NCBI GenBank assembly: GCA_016283755.1
Contig: JAEENO010000020.1
Coordinates: 84,156-148,155 of the forward strand
From: Lachnospiraceae bacterium
GTDB taxonomy: Bacteria > Bacillota > Clostridia > Lachnospirales > Lachnospiraceae
Direction of reading: 5' to 3'
Length of the DNA stretch: 64,000 bases
A program made the translations under genes and the position numbers. Numbering within the stretch: position 1 is the first letter of the stretch; the number at the start of each line of letters is the position of its first letter. Under the pieces are notes generated by a model. The model was not told where the DNA came from, did no database searches, and was given only the letters and a program-made list of their open reading frames with translations. Below are positions 55,438 to 63,980 of the stretch, one piece after another.

Positions 55438-55605
55438 GCATTTTCTTCTTTAATAGAACTTTTTTTAAATGTCAATATTAAATGCGAAAAAAAATATAAT
55501 AAATTGTCTTGGTCCAGATCCATGTTTTTAAGCATAACTTCAAACATAATTTTCAAATACCGTGCTTTAGTTAGAAAAAATAGGGAAAATACGGATATAC
55601 AAATA

Positions 55606-55624
55606 AAACTGGCAAAACCAGTTT
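55606..55624 (-). terminator. Short terminator-like hairpin after the IS30 transposase gene
   Basis: AAACTGG-TTTTG-CCAGTTT followed by TATTTG, 25 bp beyond the transposase stop. Confidence 0.45.
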
Positions 55625-55648
55625 ATAATTAAAAATAACATTTCTGTG

Positions 55649-56698
55649 TTACAAACTAATTCCAAGAGCATTTAGCTCCTGATTATACATCTCTTCCGAA
55701 GATTTATAACCAAATATCTTTCTCGGATAGTTATTGATCCAGTCTTCGACTCGCTTAACATCGCGTTGTTTTAGAATATTAAGATCTGTTCCTTTTGGAA
55801 TATGCCGGCGAATCATACGATTTTGATTTTCATTAGAGCCCCTTTCGCAGCTGCAATAAGGATGACAGTAATAAATTGTTGTCCTGTTAATATCGCTGCG
55901 ATGGCTTTTTTGCATTCCCAAATAATCTTGAAATTCCGAACCATTATCGACAGTTATTGATTTAAATATCTTTTTAAAATTTCGTTCTCCGAACTTCTTT
56001 TCAAGAGTATTTAATGCTTTCACTACACATTCCGTTGTATGCCTTTTAAGTAGCAAACACAACTCTTTTCGGGTTTTTCTTTCAGTCAAAACCAACAAGG
56101 ATTTTTTCGAGATGCCCTGCTTACCTACTACTGTATCCATTTCCCAATTTCCGAATTCTTTTCTAGAGAGTACCTTTTCCGGTCTTTTTTCTATACTGAG
56201 TCCTTTACTTGGACGAGCTTGTCTAATGACTCTATTATATGACCGTTTTTTGCATTTGCATTTGATAGGCAATTGCTTGTTTGTCAATTTGTAGAATATG
56301 CCTTTATCGATGTAGCTATATAGGGTTGATACGCATATACTTATAGTATTACCTTCCTTTTTTATAGCTTCTAACGCAGCCGCAGGACTGTATTTCTTAT
56401 TAATGATTATATCCTCGATACGATTTGCAAAAGCACGTTCTTTATCAATTTTCAAATTTGGTCCTTTACATGACATTATTTCATTAATATGTTCTTGAGC
56501 AATATCCGGACTATAACGTACTTCTGTTGTTTCGTCACTATTTCGCGCTACAAAGTATCCTCTGTTTTTTTCTCTATATATTGTACTAATATGTTTATCA
56601 AGAAGCTTCGCAATATCTTTAGGTGTATGGCCCGCTTTAAGTAAAACTTCAATTTTCAAGCGATCATTAAATGTTAAGTGTCTAAACGTTTTTCTCAT
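55649..56698 (-). CDS. IS30-family transposase
   Basis: 349 aa from ATG 56698; the frame runs on to 56743. An N-terminal HTH (LTFNDRLKIEVLLKAGHTPKDIAKLL) precedes an intact rve-type DDE core: WEMDTVVG, ITVDNGSEF and CERGSNENQNRMIRRHIPKG, so all three acidic residues are present. The gene looks active. I could not fix the terminal inverted repeats or a target duplication; candidate ends share AAATGTC near 55470 and 56770. It sits between efp and tRNA-Lys at the edge of the accessory region. Confidence 0.95.
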   Translation of the reverse strand: MRKTFRHLTFNDRLKIEVLLKAGHTPKDIAKLLDKHISTIYREKNRGYFVARNSDETTEVRYSPDIAQEHINEIMSCKGPNLKIDKERAFANRIEDIIINKKYSPAAALEAIKKEGNTISICVSTLYSYIDKGIFYKLTNKQLPIKCKCKKRSYNRVIRQARPSKGLSIEKRPEKVLSRKEFGNWEMDTVVGKQGISKKSLLVLTERKTRKELCLLLKRHTTECVVKALNTLEKKFGERNFKKIFKSITVDNGSEFQDYLGMQKSHRSDINRTTIYYCHPYCSCERGSNENQNRMIRRHIPKGTDLNILKQRDVKRVEDWINNYPRKIFGYKSSEEMYNQELNALGISL

Positions 56699-56888
56699 AA
56701 AGTATACTTCCTTCGATGCCCCGGCTTGCTTGTCGCAGGACAAATAATCCTATTTATCATTTTAGACATTTGCGCATCAAAATTCAATTTTTTCTTTTTG
56801 ATTCCGTTAACTTTTTAGCTTATCTTCTTCTATTTCTTGGATCATCTGCTCATGTGTAATGTATTTTTCTTTCATCGTTTCCAAATAA

Positions 56889-56925
56889 AAAATCACTAAC
56901 CAAATATAGTTAGTGATTTTACTAT
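56889..56925 (-). terminator. Terminator-like hairpin between tRNA-Lys and IS30
   Basis: Perfect 12-bp stem AAAATCACTAAC / GTTAGTGATTTT followed by TTATTT on the minus strand, about 180 bp downstream of tRNA-Lys. It lies within a small open frame (56807-57022), which argues that frame is not coding. Confidence 0.7.
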
Positions 56926-57101
56926 TATTTAAAAAGGTATATGCGGTTTTAGCACCAAGAAGGGATAATAGTTCTACTACTGTGTAAATTGGGATATCCC
57001 AAAACCGACAATCCCATTTCATTGTCTTTTGCTTTCTTTAACTACAGTGCACAGTTTCCAGGAAGAGACGTAACTTAATCATCTGAGCTCGGCTTGTGAA
57101 A

Positions 57102-57174
57102 TGCGCCGTACTGGATTCGAACCAGCGACAACTCGATTAAAAGTCGAGTGCTCTACCAACTGAGCTAACGGTGC
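57102..57174 (-). tRNA. tRNA-Lys (anticodon TTT)
   Basis: 73-nt cloverleaf on the minus strand: acceptor GCACCGT, D arm GCTCAGTTGGTAGAGC, anticodon arm CTCGACTTTTAATCGAG (anticodon TTT), T arm CTGGTTCGAATCCAG, discriminator A, no encoded CCA. Acceptor pair 3-70 is A-C, a mismatch; the other six pairs are intact. The stop codon of the upstream gene lies 2 bp from its 5' end. No dedicated promoter was recognised. Confidence 0.93.
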
Positions 57175-57176
57175 AA

Positions 57177-58043
57177 TTACGTTTTGAGTAATATGTAATA
57201 AATATGAGGCAAGTATCGAGTTTCTTTTTTAATGTCAAATCTCACAATCACCAATACTGGTTCCATATCTTTTAAGCAGTTCAGATCTGACATAAGATTC
57301 TCTTTTAGGATATCATCTATATATTCTGACGGATATTCAGAATATGTCATTTCTCCAACATAAATGCTATGTTGCTTTTCGTTGATTAGATCTTCTAATC
57401 GCCTTTTATAATATTGCCTGGCTTTATAATTATTAGTAATCTCATAACTTTTCATCGGAGCAACTGATAAATCTAATATCCTATCTTTGGATATATCCTG
57501 AACTTTAATGGGATATTTTACAGTATCCGTTTGGAAAAGCTTATTAAGTAGATCTTTTAAAGCATATTTAAATGTAGTGCTATATGAATCTAATACTGTT
57601 AAAGGCAATTTTCGTTCGTAAACATAAAGAGTATCTTTATAGCATTTTTTATAGAAGAAAATCAGACCTTTTATATAATTTGCCGGATATCTTTTATCAA
57701 GTACAGCCGGAAATCCCATGTAACGTAAAAACTCTTCTAAATTATACACGCGTTGGTCCGTACTTTTATTTTCTATAACTTCTGGAACTTTTTCCGACAA
57801 AAAGACTGTCGGTATATCAATAGAAAGCCCAAGAAAATCGCACATTAAATTCATGCTTTCTTCTTCATACATTATTACTTTAGAGGATTCCTTTAACGCA
57901 GCTTCTAAAGCTTCTTTTCCAATTTGCTTTTTTTCTTCATCTAAAAGCCGTTCGCTAAATAGTATCTTTCCGTCAAAAGAGCCGATTGTAAAATTAAATA
58001 AAGCCTGAACCGGAGCCAAGGAATAGTAAATAAAAAGAATCAT
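57177..58043 (-). CDS. Hypothetical protein, third gene of an XRE-led operon
   Basis: 288 aa; no family recognised. It has a short hydrophobic N-terminal stretch (LFIYYSLAPVQALFNFTIGSF), not a clear signal peptide, then a charged alpha/beta-looking body (EKKQIGKEALEAALKESSKVIMYEEE; YYKRRLEDLINEKQHS). No nuclease, protease, kinase or membrane motif was found. It starts 2 bp after the membrane-protein gene and ends 2 bp before tRNA-Lys. Tight coupling to a regulator and a membrane protein suggests joint function, possibly stress or defence; this is inference. Confidence 0.75.
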   Translation of the reverse strand: MILFIYYSLAPVQALFNFTIGSFDGKILFSERLLDEEKKQIGKEALEAALKESSKVIMYEEESMNLMCDFLGLSIDIPTVFLSEKVPEVIENKSTDQRVYNLEEFLRYMGFPAVLDKRYPANYIKGLIFFYKKCYKDTLYVYERKLPLTVLDSYSTTFKYALKDLLNKLFQTDTVKYPIKVQDISKDRILDLSVAPMKSYEITNNYKARQYYKRRLEDLINEKQHSIYVGEMTYSEYPSEYIDDILKENLMSDLNCLKDMEPVLVIVRFDIKKETRYLPHIYYILLKT

Positions 58044-58045
58044 AG

Positions 58046-58522
58046 TTAATCAAAAATAATAATATCTTCAGGGTTAAATTGGTTTGTAAGTCTGATTTTT
58101 CCTTCGTCTGTTATGTCAAAAATATAAAAAACAGAAACAGAATAATCATAGTTATATAGCTTAAGAATAAATACGTCGGAGCTAATATCAAGAGAATATA
58201 TCCAATTCTGAACATTGGGATTATCGGAATTAACATAGCCACTATAGTTATTATCATCTCCAAAATTAAAAATTTTATCCCCGGATGTATATACCTCTCC
58301 TTTTATCATCATGCCGTATGATTCTAACAAGCAATCATTAATAACTTGATAAGATTCCGCTGATTCTTCTGCTTTGTTCTTGATTTCATTACTATTGTGC
58401 TTACTTCCCGGCATTTTATGAATTATCAAGATCGATATCATAAAAATAATAACGATACCGTCTAGTATAAGTAGAAGCATACTTGTTTTATTATTCTTAA
58501 AAAGTTCTTTTATCTTATTCAT
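58046..58522 (-). CDS. Hypothetical single-pass membrane protein
   Basis: 158 aa. Short basic start (NKIKELFKNNKTS), one transmembrane helix (MLLLILDGIVIIFMISILII, about residues 15-34), then an extracytoplasmic domain of about 120 residues with many Tyr/Asp/Asn (GDDNNYSGYVNSDNPNVQNW). Family not recognised. Its ATG overlaps the stop of the XRE gene as ATGA, so translation is coupled. It may be a sensor or an anti-factor for the regulator; not shown by sequence. Confidence 0.75.
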   Translation of the reverse strand: MNKIKELFKNNKTSMLLLILDGIVIIFMISILIIHKMPGSKHNSNEIKNKAEESAESYQVINDCLLESYGMMIKGEVYTSGDKIFNFGDDNNYSGYVNSDNPNVQNWIYSLDISSDVFILKLYNYDYSVSVFYIFDITDEGKIRLTNQFNPEDIIIFD

Positions 58523-58971
58523 TGTGTTATTTCTTTTTCTCGCTTATATGTATTAATTGCACTTACCATAGATGATACTTGCTCTAGTATTAATGATTTT
58601 GCTATTGGATCAAGTTCTTTTATTAATTCTGCAAAAATCCCCTGATAATCAGTAACATTAAAGTTCATATTCGGTATTACAGATGACGGTTCAATATTTA
58701 GTGCTGCAGAAATCTTAAATAGGGTAGCTACAGATATGGATTTTACTGTTGAAGAATTAAAAAGCCTAGCAATTGTAGATTTCGAGATACCCGTAGTTCG
58801 CGATAATGCATTATAAGATATATTTTGACGATCCACTTCTCTTAATATGTTTTGATAAAGCGTTCTTGTGTATATATTTATAACTTCATCGTTAAAGCCG
58901 TTGTTCTTTTCCATGTTTTGAATTAGAACAGTTCCGATTTTTTTATTTCTTCGTTGTTGAGGCACAGTCAT
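58519..58971 (-). CDS. XRE-family transcriptional regulator
   Basis: 150 aa. A helix-turn-helix of the Cro/CI type at residues about 48-90: ISYNALSRTTGISKSTIARLFNSST...ATLFKISAALNIEPSSVI. The N-terminal 45 residues and the C-terminal helix (ELIKELDPIAKSLILEQVSSMVSAI) may oligomerise. It leads a three-gene overlapping operon and has its own promoter with a 10-bp palindrome in the leader, so autoregulation is likely. AAAGGAAT is close to ATG 58971. Confidence 0.85.
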   Translation of the reverse strand: MTVPQQRRNKKIGTVLIQNMEKNNGFNDEVINIYTRTLYQNILREVDRQNISYNALSRTTGISKSTIARLFNSSTVKSISVATLFKISAALNIEPSSVIPNMNFNVTDYQGIFAELIKELDPIAKSLILEQVSSMVSAINTYKREKEITQ

Positions 58972-58996
58972 ATTCCTTTCTATATTGTAATAAATC

Positions 58997-59006
58997 GGTA
59001 ATTACC
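58997..59006 (-). promoter_or_regulatory. Candidate XRE operator
   Basis: Perfect palindrome GGTAATTACC, 26 bp upstream of the XRE start and downstream of its -10 box. Confidence 0.4.
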
Positions 59007-59036
59007 AATAGTAGTAATAATATTAGTATATATTTA

Positions 59037-59078
59037 GATATATACCATTTTTCTAATTTAGTCAAGCAAAAATCGAAC
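59037..59078 (-). promoter_or_regulatory. XRE operon promoter with GTTCGATTTTTGC box
   Basis: Minus-strand -35 TTGACT (59060-59065), 17-bp spacer, -10 TATATC (59037-59042). Directly upstream of the -35 is GTTCGATTTTTGC (59066-59078), the reverse orientation of a box in two other promoters of this region. Confidence 0.55.
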
Positions 59079-59113
59079 CATTATATCCAAAACGTTCTTT
59101 TTTTGAATATATA

Positions 59114-59150
59114 ATTACCGGAGCCTCATAAAGAAGCTCCGGTAAGTTTT
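59114..59150 (-). terminator. Terminator after the 59.2-kb DUF5688 gene
   Basis: Stem TTACCGGAGC / GCTCCGGTAA, loop of about ten bases, tail AATTATATA on the minus strand (weak U-run). Confidence 0.65.
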
Positions 59151-59181
59151 AGTATATCATAGAATACCTTTTCTTATTCTA

Positions 59182-60144
59182 TTACATCTTCTGAATATTA
59201 TTCTTGATGCCTTCTGCCTGCATTGACATGTACTCATTAGGCATAAGAAGCTGCATCGTTTTATTATCATATACATAAACGTGATCTGATAAAATATCCT
59301 CTGCGTCAACTGACTCTGTGTTAACCGCTTTAACCATAGCATCAAATTCTTCAAAATGATTATCTCTTAAGTCATTCATCGGAACAGCAATCACTTCATG
59401 AATTGATGACGGTAAAATCATCAATGAAGAACCAATATAATCAACAAATTTCTTCATGAAATCGTTGTCAAGTATTACCGATGCGCCCTGGAACTTATCC
59501 TCCGTGTGTAGAATAAACATCTGCGGGCCTTCCATTTCAAAAGGCATATCTGACATATCTGTATCCGATGTAACCTTTAATGATTTCATAAAATCTGTCA
59601 TGGATGTTACTATTGGTGTTCTTCCTTCGAGTTTGTTTTTCTTCGCTGCATCCATAAGGTCATTAACGTTTACATTCCATCGTTCTAAATGACTAGTTTT
59701 AATTAATACTGTTCCTTTGCCAATTGTTGAATCTGAAATTAAAGCCTTGAACACAATAGCCAAATCCTTATAAGGAATATACGGAACATCTTTCAAAAGG
59801 CTTTCGTTTTCCTTTCTATTAATTAATGTTGCAAATATCTTTGAATTAACCTGGGCAAAATCATTAAAAAACGAAAAGTCAACAGCTTCTACTTCAGCTT
59901 TTATATAAGCATCATTGATTGCATTAACTATTTCTTCAAAAGAGAAAAGATCTCTATCATATAAATCATAATATTTATTAAGATAGATAGTTGGAGTGCA
60001 ATTATGTCCTTCCTTTGAGATGTTAATTCCGTCAAGAACAACTCCGTTGTTCTTATTTACCTGAACTATAGAGACGGTATAATCTTCTCCGTAAATATCC
60101 TTCAATTTACTTAATACAGCTTCCTTAAATTCATTATAATTCAT
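59182..60144 (-). CDS. DUF5688-family protein (copy 1)
   Basis: 320 aa. The start MNYNEFKEAVLSKLKDIYGEDYTVSIVQVNKNNGVVLDGI, the middle IKTSHLERWNVNVNDLMDAAKKN and the C-terminal LPSSIHEVIAVP match a second gene at 61.4-62.4 kb segment by segment. I recall this as DUF5688, frequent in Lachnospiraceae and of unknown function. Soluble, without signal peptide or metal motif that I can see. GAGGAAACC precedes ATG 60144. Its upstream region has the shared promoter module. Monocistronic. Confidence 0.85.
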   Translation of the reverse strand: MNYNEFKEAVLSKLKDIYGEDYTVSIVQVNKNNGVVLDGINISKEGHNCTPTIYLNKYYDLYDRDLFSFEEIVNAINDAYIKAEVEAVDFSFFNDFAQVNSKIFATLINRKENESLLKDVPYIPYKDLAIVFKALISDSTIGKGTVLIKTSHLERWNVNVNDLMDAAKKNKLEGRTPIVTSMTDFMKSLKVTSDTDMSDMPFEMEGPQMFILHTEDKFQGASVILDNDFMKKFVDYIGSSLMILPSSIHEVIAVPMNDLRDNHFEEFDAMVKAVNTESVDAEDILSDHVYVYDNKTMQLLMPNEYMSMQAEGIKNNIQKM

Positions 60145-60187
60145 GGTTTCCTCCTCGGTTTAAGCAATATCGCTTTTGATACTATAG

Positions 60188-60260
60188 ATGATAGCAAGTT
60201 TTTTATGGCAAGGTGGTGTCATAAATTGTGCTGTTTTTCTTTTTTTGTTCGATTTTTGCA
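60188..60260 (-). promoter_or_regulatory. Shared accessory promoter module, copy 1
   Basis: Minus strand: TGCAAAAATCGAAC box (60247-60260), A-rich stretch, TTTATGACACCACCTTG, then -10 TATCAT (60188-60193). Same order and spacing as at 63153-63224. The -35 position reads CCACCT, unlike TTGACA, so an activator or alternative factor may be needed. Confidence 0.6.
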
Positions 60261-60393
60261 GTGTTGTTATGATTCTTTGTATTAGGTATGGAATATAATT
60301 AAAAAAGAACCACTCAATTCTCAATGGAGAAAGGAATGATTCTTTTTACTTCCATATTTAAATGCTAAAATTATAAGAATCTCGAATAAATTC

Positions 60394-60816
60394 TTACTTA
60401 TAATTCATGTTGCCATATATCAATGAATCATCTGCGAATTTAAATCTGTTAGATATATTTCTTAAACACTCATTAAAATAAGCATCCAGTTTTATCAATG
60501 TTTTTTCTGATGTTATAAGTCCGGTTGAAAAATCAAACGCGGAACACTGCTGCTGTGATAACATATTATCGTATTCAAGCGGTATTAATTCTTTTCTTTC
60601 AAAATCAAGCGCAAAATAAATCGAGAGAATATCTTCGTCTGTTTCTTTGAATAAAAGTGAATAGATTGTATTCCCAAAATAGTCTGTCATCCCGGTTTCC
60701 TTTAATTGTATTGACAAGCCATTATTAGATACAATCTTCCCACTGTCCTCATTTAAGGCAGTGGGAAGATATGGGAATACTAAATTGAAATTCTCTGCAG
60801 CATTAGCGATCAGCAT
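60394..60816 (-). CDS. Hypothetical protein, partner of small ORF
   Basis: 140 aa from ATG 60816 (AGGA eight bases upstream); the frame runs up to 60849. Not recognised. It starts MLIANAAENFNLVFPYLPTAL and contains FALDFERKELIPLEY and ECLRNISNRFKF. No membrane helix or signal. Its start overlaps the end of the 51-aa gene by 14 bp, so translation is likely coupled. A 12-bp perfect inverted repeat falls within codons 16-28 or so. Last gene of the operon that begins with DUF5688 copy 2. Confidence 0.75.
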   Translation of the reverse strand: MLIANAAENFNLVFPYLPTALNEDSGKIVSNNGLSIQLKETGMTDYFGNTIYSLLFKETDEDILSIYFALDFERKELIPLEYDNMLSQQQCSAFDFSTGLITSEKTLIKLDAYFNECLRNISNRFKFADDSLIYGNMNYK

Positions 60817-60958
60817 CGTTTGATTCCTTTTTTTCTTCATCAGAAACAAATGTATAATCGATCTCTTTTACTCTATTCGCGCTCGCTGCTCTTGCAAACT
60901 CTTCATATTCTTTCTTGATATAAGCCATCTGTAAATTTGAATTCTTGTGTTCACTCAT
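60803..60958 (-). CDS. Small charged protein, 51 aa
   Basis: A short frame with a good ribosome site (AAGGAGATTTAG before ATG 60958). It encodes 51 aa beginning MSEHKNSNLQMAYIKKEYEE and ending EEKKESNDADR; mostly polar and helix-prone. It lies 24 bp after the 61.0-kb gene and overlaps the next gene by 14 bp. This spacing supports it being a real gene. No family recognised. Confidence 0.65.
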   Translation of the reverse strand: MSEHKNSNLQMAYIKKEYEEFARAASANRVKEIDYTFVSDEEKKESNDADR

Positions 60959-60982
60959 AATCTAAATCTCCTTATCATTATT

Positions 60983-61366
60983 TTATAGCTGATTATTTAA
61001 ATAATCAATAGGCTGCATATTTAACTCCTTAAGTAAGCTAAATGTCCTGGTTTCAGCATTATAAAAAAGTCCGTCGTCAAAGTTGGTTTTTACTTCATCC
61101 ATAGCTGACTTTAAACCTTCAAAAGATTTTCTAAATATTTCAAGATCTTTTTTCAGATCATACATCGCTTCTGCCACATAAAAATCATCAAAGATAGGAA
61201 TGATAGCAATATCGTCTTCCAGGCCGACAACAGATAGAATATCATTTTTTAATGATGCAGTATTCTCACCTTCTTCCAACTCACAACTGTAAAGCTTTGG
61301 ATGTTGGGCGGCTGCTAATATAAATTTCTCATTCCATCGGCGCTTTATTTCTTCAATCTTTGCCAT
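60983..61366 (-). CDS. Hypothetical protein, DUF5688-linked
   Basis: 127 aa from ATG 61366 (AAAGG ten bases upstream; a TTG at 61375 is in frame). Soluble and mostly helical: AKIEEIKRRWNEKFILAAAQHPKLYSC, then a long helix FRKSFEGLKSAMDEVKTNFDDG. No known domain recognised. It follows DUF5688 copy 2 by 33 bp and precedes the 51-aa gene, so a four-gene operon is likely. Confidence 0.78.
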   Translation of the reverse strand: MAKIEEIKRRWNEKFILAAAQHPKLYSCELEEGENTASLKNDILSVVGLEDDIAIIPIFDDFYVAEAMYDLKKDLEIFRKSFEGLKSAMDEVKTNFDDGLFYNAETRTFSLLKELNMQPIDYLNNQL

Positions 61367-61399
61367 TTCATACAAACCTTTCTAATTATCATTAATTAT

Positions 61400-62389
61400 T
61401 CAAATCATCCGTATATTCTCGACACCCACCGCTTTCTTAAGTTCTTCCATCGTTGTATCCGCAAGAGATAAGGTTCTCTTGGCTGCATCAAAACGATATA
61501 CATGATCTGAAAGCTGCTCTTCTTCAGAAACCTGAGTTCCATTGACCTCTCTTACCATCTCTGACAAAGCCTCTGGTGTTCCCATTTCCGTACTTACCGC
61601 AATTACTTCATGCACAGATGAAGGCAAAATATAAAGGTCAGTTCCAACCTTCTTAGAAAGCTCGGAAAGTGCATCCTCATAAAACATAGAAGCTGCTCCA
61701 TTAACCTTTGCAGCATTAGAGATAACATACATCTGCTGTGTAGGAGGCATTTCCTCAAACATCACATCAGCCATCTCTGCAGGCATACCGTCTTTTCCAA
61801 ACATCTCTCTCATGACTTCGTTCATGGACTGGATGGTAACCGGAAGAATCTCCTTGGTATTTGCCACTGCAAGCTCATGAAGTTCATCTGCGTTTACTCC
61901 CCACATATCCATATGTTCATTGCGGATTGTGATAGTAGCAGTTCCTTCGCTGTCACATCCGAGCATTACCTTATAGATCAAAGACAAGTCTTCTCTCTCA
62001 TGATGAGGAACCTGCGAAAGCAACTTTGCGTTACGCTCTGTATTCACAGCAACCATGATTACATGGTTTTTTACAAAATCAAAATCCTGGAACTTCTCCG
62101 CAACGTTGCTAAACTCTTCCGGAGCCTTAATACTGGATACCACGGTGTTTGTGATCTGATCCATAAGCATATCTAAGTCTTTACCTTCTTCGTACTGCTT
62201 AAAGTACCCATCAAGATAAATGTTCGGAGCAATGTTGCTATCCTCCGGGGTTACTGTAATCCCATGAAGAACAACTCCATTGTTCTTTTCCACTTCACGG
62301 GCGCGAATCTGTGCACCCTTACACTCTTCCGGTAAACGCTCCGGAAGAGTCATCAACGTATAATCCTGAAATTCATTAAAACTAAGCAT
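61400..62389 (-). CDS. DUF5688-family protein (copy 2)
   Basis: 329 aa, paralogue of the 59.2-kb protein: SFNEFQDYTLMTLPERLPEE...VEKNNGVVLHGI, IYLDGYFKQYEEG, ITIRNEHMDMWGVNADELHELA and LPSSVHEVIAVS align with it. Function unknown. The segment VPHHEREDLSLIYKVML is better conserved between the copies than the ends. AAGGGAG precedes ATG 62389. Its upstream region lacks the shared promoter module and instead has a hairpin (ACAGCA/TGCTGT near 62441). First gene of a likely four-gene operon. Confidence 0.85.
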   Translation of the reverse strand: MLSFNEFQDYTLMTLPERLPEECKGAQIRAREVEKNNGVVLHGITVTPEDSNIAPNIYLDGYFKQYEEGKDLDMLMDQITNTVVSSIKAPEEFSNVAEKFQDFDFVKNHVIMVAVNTERNAKLLSQVPHHEREDLSLIYKVMLGCDSEGTATITIRNEHMDMWGVNADELHELAVANTKEILPVTIQSMNEVMREMFGKDGMPAEMADVMFEEMPPTQQMYVISNAAKVNGAASMFYEDALSELSKKVGTDLYILPSSVHEVIAVSTEMGTPEALSEMVREVNGTQVSEEEQLSDHVYRFDAAKRTLSLADTTMEELKKAVGVENIRMI

Positions 62390-62507
62390 ATTCGTGCTCC
62401 CTTCTTATAAATAATTATTATAATATAAACAGCATCTCATTGCTGTATTGCTGTTCATATTTTCCTTATTTATCGCTATATTTTTATTTTAATACGTAGT
62501 TTGAACC

Positions 62508-63116
62508 TTATGTTTTCTTATAGGTTAAGTCATATTGATATTTTTCCTGCTGCTCTTTTAAAATGCTTATCGCAAAGGCCAAGTTATTCATGTCTTCTTT
62601 ATATGAGTCGTACTCGTCTTGGTCATAAGAGTCATATTCAACATCGCCGGGAATCTGTTCTTCAAGTTTTTCTTCACAATAATTTCTAAAGTATTCCAAT
62701 GTCTTAAGTGCCTTATCAAAAAATTCGAATTTAGGCATCGCATTTTTACGCAAATCTTCCTCGTTTTTAATGAATCTAATCGGTACATTCATAAAATCGA
62801 ATATCTTTTTTCTTGAAGAATAAAGCGCAAATTGTTCTATTATTAGATGGAATGTTGTATGACCATATCCATCACCCCAAAATAACTCAGTTGATTCCAA
62901 GCCATTTAATTCATTTTTTGACTTAAATAGATTTACTTCGTCATCAACAAAATAATAAGCATCTTTAAACTCAATCTTTATATATCCCGTAGATGAATAA
63001 CTTGTTTCTACTTTTAAAGCAGAAACAAGTCTTTCCTCATTATTCTTGAACTTAAGAATTATATAATCCGGATTAATATGTTCAGATTTTACTTCGGCTT
63101 TAATTCGTATATCCAT
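62508..63116 (-). CDS. Hypothetical protein under shared promoter module
   Basis: 202 aa, not recognised. The N-terminal half is beta-rich (IRIKAEVKSEHINPDYIILKFKNNEERLV; TGYIKIEFKDAYYF) and the C-terminal half helical and acidic (NYCEEKLEEQIPGDVEYDSYDQDEYDSYKEDM). No signal or membrane helix. ATG 63116 has GAGG well upstream (11 bp). It carries the same promoter module as DUF5688 copy 1, which ties it to that gene despite the 2.4-kb gap. Confidence 0.75.
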   Translation of the reverse strand: MDIRIKAEVKSEHINPDYIILKFKNNEERLVSALKVETSYSSTGYIKIEFKDAYYFVDDEVNLFKSKNELNGLESTELFWGDGYGHTTFHLIIEQFALYSSRKKIFDFMNVPIRFIKNEEDLRKNAMPKFEFFDKALKTLEYFRNYCEEKLEEQIPGDVEYDSYDQDEYDSYKEDMNNLAFAISILKEQQEKYQYDLTYKKT

Positions 63117-63152
63117 ACTAAAATGTCCTCGTAATCACGTTGTTGTTTTCTT

Positions 63153-63225
63153 ATTATATCTTATTTAATAGAACAAAGTGGTTTCATAAAAGACATTGTT
63201 TTTCGTTTTTTGTTCGATTTTTGCA
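63153..63225 (-). promoter_or_regulatory. Shared accessory promoter module, copy 2
   Basis: Minus strand: TGCAAAAATCGAAC (box ending at 63224), A-rich stretch, TTTATGAAACCACTTTG, then -10 TATAAT (63153-63158). It matches copy 1 at 60188-60260 in sequence and, within one base, in spacing. Confidence 0.65.
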
Positions 63226-63231
63226 ACAAAA

Positions 63232-63256
63232 TTCCCCGGCAAATTTGCCGGGGAAA
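63232..63256 (-). terminator. Terminator after the HEPN/MNT pair
   Basis: Stem TCCCCGGCAAA / TTTGCCGGGGA followed by ATTTTG on the minus strand. Confidence 0.8.
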
Positions 63257-63280
63257 AATTATAGCTTTTGTTTTGTTATC

Positions 63281-63676
63281 TTATCCTTGCTTTGGTTCTA
63301 CTAAAAGAAGCGTATCTATAAATAATGTAACTTCATTTAAAGCCTTTCCTACTTTATTTTTTTCCAATTTATAATTTGTTATATATCTTGTCTTTGATTC
63401 CCAAATTGTAAACATTTCACCGTGTTCTTTTATATATTCTGGAATATCTACGTTTAAGTTTTCTTCCTTAAACTTCAGCAGCAATTGTGTTATATCGTGT
63501 GTTTTAATGTACTCAATTCCATTTTGTTCTAACAAAAATTTAATCGCTAATTCAACGGTTTGTTGTAAATGATATCCAACAAAATTTAAATATGCTTCAT
63601 CTTCACATAAGTTATTATATATACTTTTTGCCACTTCCAAATTTTGCAATGCTTTAGTCAGTAATGTTTCGTTCAT
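63281..63676 (-). CDS. HEPN-domain protein of HEPN/MNT pair
   Basis: 131 aa. A four-helix HEPN pattern (LLTKALQNLEVAKSIYNNL; YHLQQTVELAIKFLLEQNGIEYIKTHDITQLL). The Rx4-6H RNase motif is not seen: the C-terminal site reads TRYITNYKLE, so it may be non-catalytic or belong to the nucleotide-binding HEPN type. It overlaps the nucleotidyltransferase gene by 23 bp with GGAG before ATG 63676, the usual HEPN/MNT arrangement, which can be toxin-antitoxin. Confidence 0.85.
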   Translation of the reverse strand: MNETLLTKALQNLEVAKSIYNNLCEDEAYLNFVGYHLQQTVELAIKFLLEQNGIEYIKTHDITQLLLKFKEENLNVDIPEYIKEHGEMFTIWESKTRYITNYKLEKNKVGKALNEVTLFIDTLLLVEPKQG

Positions 63677-63980
63677 AAATTTTCACTCCTGTCTTTTTTA
63701 TTTCAGATAACAATCTTTCATCTACCGTATAATTAGTCCAAAGATCAAATAGAAATGGCATATACACCGTAATTAGGTTTTTTTCATTTTTTTCGAGCGT
63801 TACATATATATCCACGTCACTTCCGGAATGACATCTTTCGGTAACACTTGAACCAAATATTGTTATTTCCTGTACAGTTTCATTTTTCAATAATTCATCA
63901 TACAGCTGTTGGACTTTCTTTTGTTGTAAAGGATGTATCTTATCACAATTCATAAATGGACTTTTAATACAAATTTTCAT
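63654..63980 (-). CDS. Minimal nucleotidyltransferase (MNT) of HEPN/MNT pair
   Basis: 108 aa. Pol-beta-like nucleotidyltransferase fold with GSSVTERCHSGSDVDIYV (GS...DxD), the signature of small MNT proteins. In characterised HepT/MntA systems the MNT partner adds AMP to the HEPN toxin. AAAGGAG is nine bases before ATG 63980, near the window end. The start MKICIKSPFMNCDKIHPLQQ suggests a full-length protein. Confidence 0.9.
   Translation of the reverse strand: MKICIKSPFMNCDKIHPLQQKKVQQLYDELLKNETVQEITIFGSSVTERCHSGSDVDIYVTLEKNEKNLITVYMPFLFDLWTNYTVDERLLSEIKKTGVKIYERNITD

Follow-up and report, generated by a model that had tools for sequence, protein, structure and literature searches.

Class II activator-dependent sigma-A promoters are found, for example, under the control of LysR-, AraC- or response-regulator-type proteins. 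Two promoter modules near the end of a Lachnospiraceae contig appear to resemble them in combining a putative site that overlaps a poor -35 with a putative distal site near -70, fixed spacing and a good -10. They differ in that their activator is only postulated and in that the box could not be assigned to a known regulator family. The second comparison is with XRE-family local regulators of accessory clusters. As in those systems, an XRE gene is present in the cluster and a copy of the box is found at its own promoter, but here that promoter is without the full module and the box is asymmetric.

The window, i.e., the whole stretch of DNA analysed, spans 64,000 nucleotides (G000:C11:84156-148155) and ends at the contig end. 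Unit 1 consists of DUF5688 copy 1, and in operon 2 the gene of a 202-aa orphan comes first, followed by DUF5688 copy 2 and three small uncharacterised ORFs. Together with the XRE operon, the features of the cluster are:

57177-58043, minus strand: gene of an uncharacterised 288-aa protein, at the end of the XRE operon
58046-58522, minus strand: 158-aa protein of the XRE operon, overlapping the XRE stop
58519-58971, minus strand: XRE-family (HTH_3) regulator, 150 aa (PF01381, E 5.7e-9), candidate regulator of the modules
59115-59145, minus strand: intrinsic terminator after DUF5688 copy 1
59182-60144, minus strand: DUF5688 copy 1, 320 aa (Pfam PF18941, E 9.5e-88), first gene after module 1
60188-60260, minus strand: module 1, promoter region of DUF5688 copy 1: TGCAAAAATCGAAC, A-tract, 6-bp spacer, TTTATGACACCAC, -10 TATCAT (TG-extended)
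60394-60849, minus strand: uncharacterised 151-aa ORF of operon 2 (listed with a TTG start; it may begin later)
60803-60958, minus strand: 51-aa ORF of operon 2, uncharacterised
60983-61375, minus strand: 130-aa protein of operon 2, uncharacterised
61400-62389, minus strand: DUF5688 copy 2, 329 aa (Pfam PF18941, E 2.4e-97), second gene after module 2
62508-63116, minus strand: 202-aa orphan, first gene after module 2, no Pfam, NCBIfam, PADLOC or PHROG match
63153-63225, minus strand: module 2, promoter region of the 202-aa gene operon: TGCAAAAATCGAAC, A-tract, 6-bp spacer, TTTATGAAACCAC, -10 TATAAT
63232-63255, minus strand: intrinsic terminator following the HEPN gene and immediately ahead of module 2

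The uncharacterised proteins of the cluster gave no convincing match in Pfam, NCBIfam, PADLOC or PHROGs, and at the limits used neither the 202-aa protein nor the XRE protein had relatives in 396 other genomes of the family. Single-sequence structure prediction of the 202-aa protein was uninformative (pLDDT 46). PDB matches of the XRE protein were to polyubiquitin chains only, and we judged them to be artefacts of repetitive sequences. No DUF5688 relatives were found in viral contigs, neither DUF5688 nor the 14-mer came up in the papers searched, and an Rfam scan of the region matched nothing except the nearby tRNA. A HEPN gene paired with an MNT-type nucleotidyltransferase gene (63281-63980, type VII toxin-antitoxin-like) occupies the contig end directly upstream of module 2.

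A preliminary description of this DNA proposed a shared promoter module before two operons, and both copies were indeed found at these positions and on this strand. Ungapped alignment gave 74% identity over 73 bp, very unevenly distributed. Block 1, composed of TGCAAAAATCGAAC and the A-tract, is identical at 28 of 29 positions and block 2 (TTTATGANACCACNT) at 13 of 15, whereas the spacer between them, 6 bp in both modules, has no identical position (0/6). Between block 2 and the -10, 9 of 18 positions agree, and the flanks are unrelated (14/60 in the 60 bp upstream, 11/35 in the 35 bp downstream of the -10). The element order, described earlier as kept within one base, turned out to be kept exactly, with 53 bp from box to -10 in both copies. 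The pattern box-N53-TATNAT matches twice in the window and never in 100 shuffles. For the two intergenic regions, the top identity over 52 columns was 43, as compared to at most 35 in 600 simulated pairs of random intergenic sequence with local composition.

The -10 boxes are good, but at 17 bp from them the -35 position is occupied by CCACCT in module 1 and CCACTT in module 2, far from TTGACA, which bears out the earlier observation that a normal -35 is missing. Module 1 allows a second sigma-A reading, TTGCCA-19-TATAGT. The start codons lie about 44 bp (module 1) and about 37 bp (module 2) downstream of the -10 boxes, so that leaders of some 30-37 nt are predicted and the -10 positions appear compatible with the gene starts. 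DNA hairpins within the modules were no better than those in shuffled sequence.

The contrast between the blocks (28/29 and 13/15) and the spacer (0/6), together with the same 53-bp distance, points to constraint on contacts and spacing rather than to mere recent copying. In the reading that we favour, at about even confidence, the modules act as sigma-A-type promoters in which the -35 is poor and a single dedicated activator, acting at two sites, is required. The activator would contact the distal box TGCAAAAATCGAAC and the A-tract (about -79 to -51) as well as a proximal site, TTTATGANACCAC, that overlaps the -35 (about -44 to -32); the spacing between the two contact sites would be fixed and the spacer sequence free. 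Once bound, it would switch on both DUF5688 operons together, activation and co-expression being what we infer from the promoter anatomy. The regulator is most likely encoded within or beside the cluster, with the XRE protein (58519-58971) as first candidate.

The 1.9-Mb genome has exactly three copies of the 13-mer GCAAAAATCGAAC, and a single 4.2-kb stretch of the window contains them all; its reversed control does not occur. When two mismatches were allowed, the 14-mer was found at 20 places in the whole genome and the reversed control at 11; the extra near matches are mostly in long open frames and are without the rest of the module. Block 2 has no other place in the genome with fewer than two mismatches, and its near matches, too, fall mostly in long open frames. 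The whole-genome search that the preliminary description had set as a check thus revealed no scatter of true matches in coding DNA and none that looks functional elsewhere. The module is missing from 143 relatives and from 396 other genomes of the family, and a search with the combined pattern over 397 family genomes found true modules in this genome only, the other genomes sharing unrelated strings. Among 84,980 species genomes the exact 19-mer had 20 matches, which we regard as chance because none of them is accompanied by the other parts of the module. In viral contigs that contain the 18-mer or ATCGAAC-N-TATGANACCAC, nothing resembled the module. Because the control sequence is in no other place in the genome or in relatives, the controlled gene set looks like a very small, locally controlled one and not like a general switch.

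A third copy of the box, together with a palindrome, is found in front of the XRE gene:

59066-59078, plus strand: third, isolated 13-mer box, reversed relative to the modules, adjoining the TTGACT -35 of the XRE operon
58997-59006, no strand assigned: GGTAATTACC, a palindrome within the XRE leader and, as an operator for autoregulation, a more conventional candidate

Read on the minus strand, the third box is GTTCGATTTTTGC, followed at once by TTGACT (59065-59060). Its position and orientation agree with the preliminary description, which had it abut the XRE -35 in the opposite orientation, but the copy consists of the 13-mer alone, with neither an A-tract nor TTTATGA or ACCAC behind it. A 13-base match to the core has a chance of about 0.001-0.002 in the 210-bp gap and 0.003-0.009 in 1.2 kb of such sequence, and the third box is therefore probably, though not certainly, meaningful. 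The XRE operon may have tandem promoters around it (59107-59037): the pair TTCAAA-16-TATAAT (59107-59080), which looks like a promoter, reaches to within one base of the box, and TTGACT-17-TATATC begins directly after it.

The XRE gene lies next to the modules and has the third box at its promoter, which makes its product our best guess for their regulator. Against it, the box is asymmetric, with no two-fold symmetry, which is unusual for a dimeric XRE protein, and the palindrome in the leader of the XRE gene is another operator-like sequence. The XRE promoter shares the 13-mer with the putative targets but not the rest of the module.

Many XRE proteins act as repressors, and the best PHROG match of this one is a transcriptional repressor. 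The modules could then be operators of a local repressor such as the XRE protein, which would bind both the distal box and the block at the -35, blocking or looping the promoter, with the third box serving autoregulation. The overlap of the proximal block with the -35 and the contact of the third box with the XRE -35 fit this arrangement. However, with such poor -35 elements the promoters would be weak also when unrepressed, and the box is non-palindromic, both in its sequence and in the repeat listing, which has no palindrome there. We consider repression possible but distinctly doubtful.

It is unlikely that the modules resemble each other mainly by descent from an ancestral promoter segment that recombination copied beside two operons, with little regulation at present. 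The modules are neighbours on the same strand, each immediately follows the 3' end of the transcription unit before it, and their overall identity would suit a copied segment. A spacer without identity beside a nearly invariant block is nevertheless unlike the neutral decay of one copied segment, and the downstream genes are not sister copies. In a tree of 26 proteins, copy 1 groups with the genome's third copy and a congener gene (98/96), whereas copy 2 falls with others in another supported clade (97/92), so the modules were not carried along by simple DUF5688 duplication. No module was found upstream of 23 further DUF5688 genes, among them the third copy of this genome. A congener carries a relative (L072) of that third gene (L060, G000:C11:40778-41653), whose upstream region is its own and unrelated.

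The surroundings of the cluster bear on another explanation. In four congeners the DNA match ends at most at about 55464, just past (upstream of) efp, beyond which they carry genes common to one another; no congener has a DNA match to 57180-63980. By this comparison, both promoters are in a species-private accessory cluster. The synteny junction (55465-57180) contains an IS30-like transposase gene (HTH_38 and rve, 55649-56743) and a tRNA-Lys(TTT) gene on the minus strand (57101-57175) whose start is 1 bp beyond the end of the 288-aa gene. The corresponding stretches of the congeners gave no tRNA. The 13-mer might mark the end or boundary of a mobile unit, with box 3 and either box 1 or box 2 inverted around one or both DUF5688 units. 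The boxes form perfect 13-bp inverted repeats (59066-60259 or 59066-63224) and lie between transcription units, and the cluster is missing in congeners that share another neighbourhood beyond efp. Such a unit is very unlikely, however: the sequence has no target duplication of more than 2 bp, there is no recognisable transposase between the repeats and no other genome copy of the 13-mer, and conservation reaches about 38 bp deeper at two of the ends but not at the third, and leads into a promoter.

The preliminary description had offered an activator or an alternative sigma factor, and the activator is the better half of that suggestion: although the missing normal -35 would suit an alternative sigma factor reading the modules, this is highly improbable because both -10 boxes (TATCAT with its TG extension, TATAAT) are sigma-A-like, and it leaves the distal box near -75 unexplained, while the modules have, to our knowledge, no resemblance to ECF, sigma-54 or sporulation-sigma consensus sequences.

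Activator-dependent sigma-A promoters thus remain our preferred reading, against which it counts that there are only two full copies of the module, that no relative has the cluster and hence no phylogenetic footprint is available, and that copy 1 could use its alternative promoter without an activator. The small regulon proposed earlier holds in a minimal sense, with two promoters and perhaps one isolated box, all within 4.2 kb and in one genome only; as such it is plausible but minimal. In the full picture, two promoters would make up a self-contained regulon in a species-private island, and an uncharacterised activator, perhaps of XRE type, would govern DUF5688 and orphan proteins through an asymmetric operator in two parts; we give this picture only a low probability. 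The shared module would tie two sets of wholly uncharacterised genes (DUF5688 and orphans) to one control input and so give a handle on when they are used; beyond this, the regulon is small, private and ordinary in kind.
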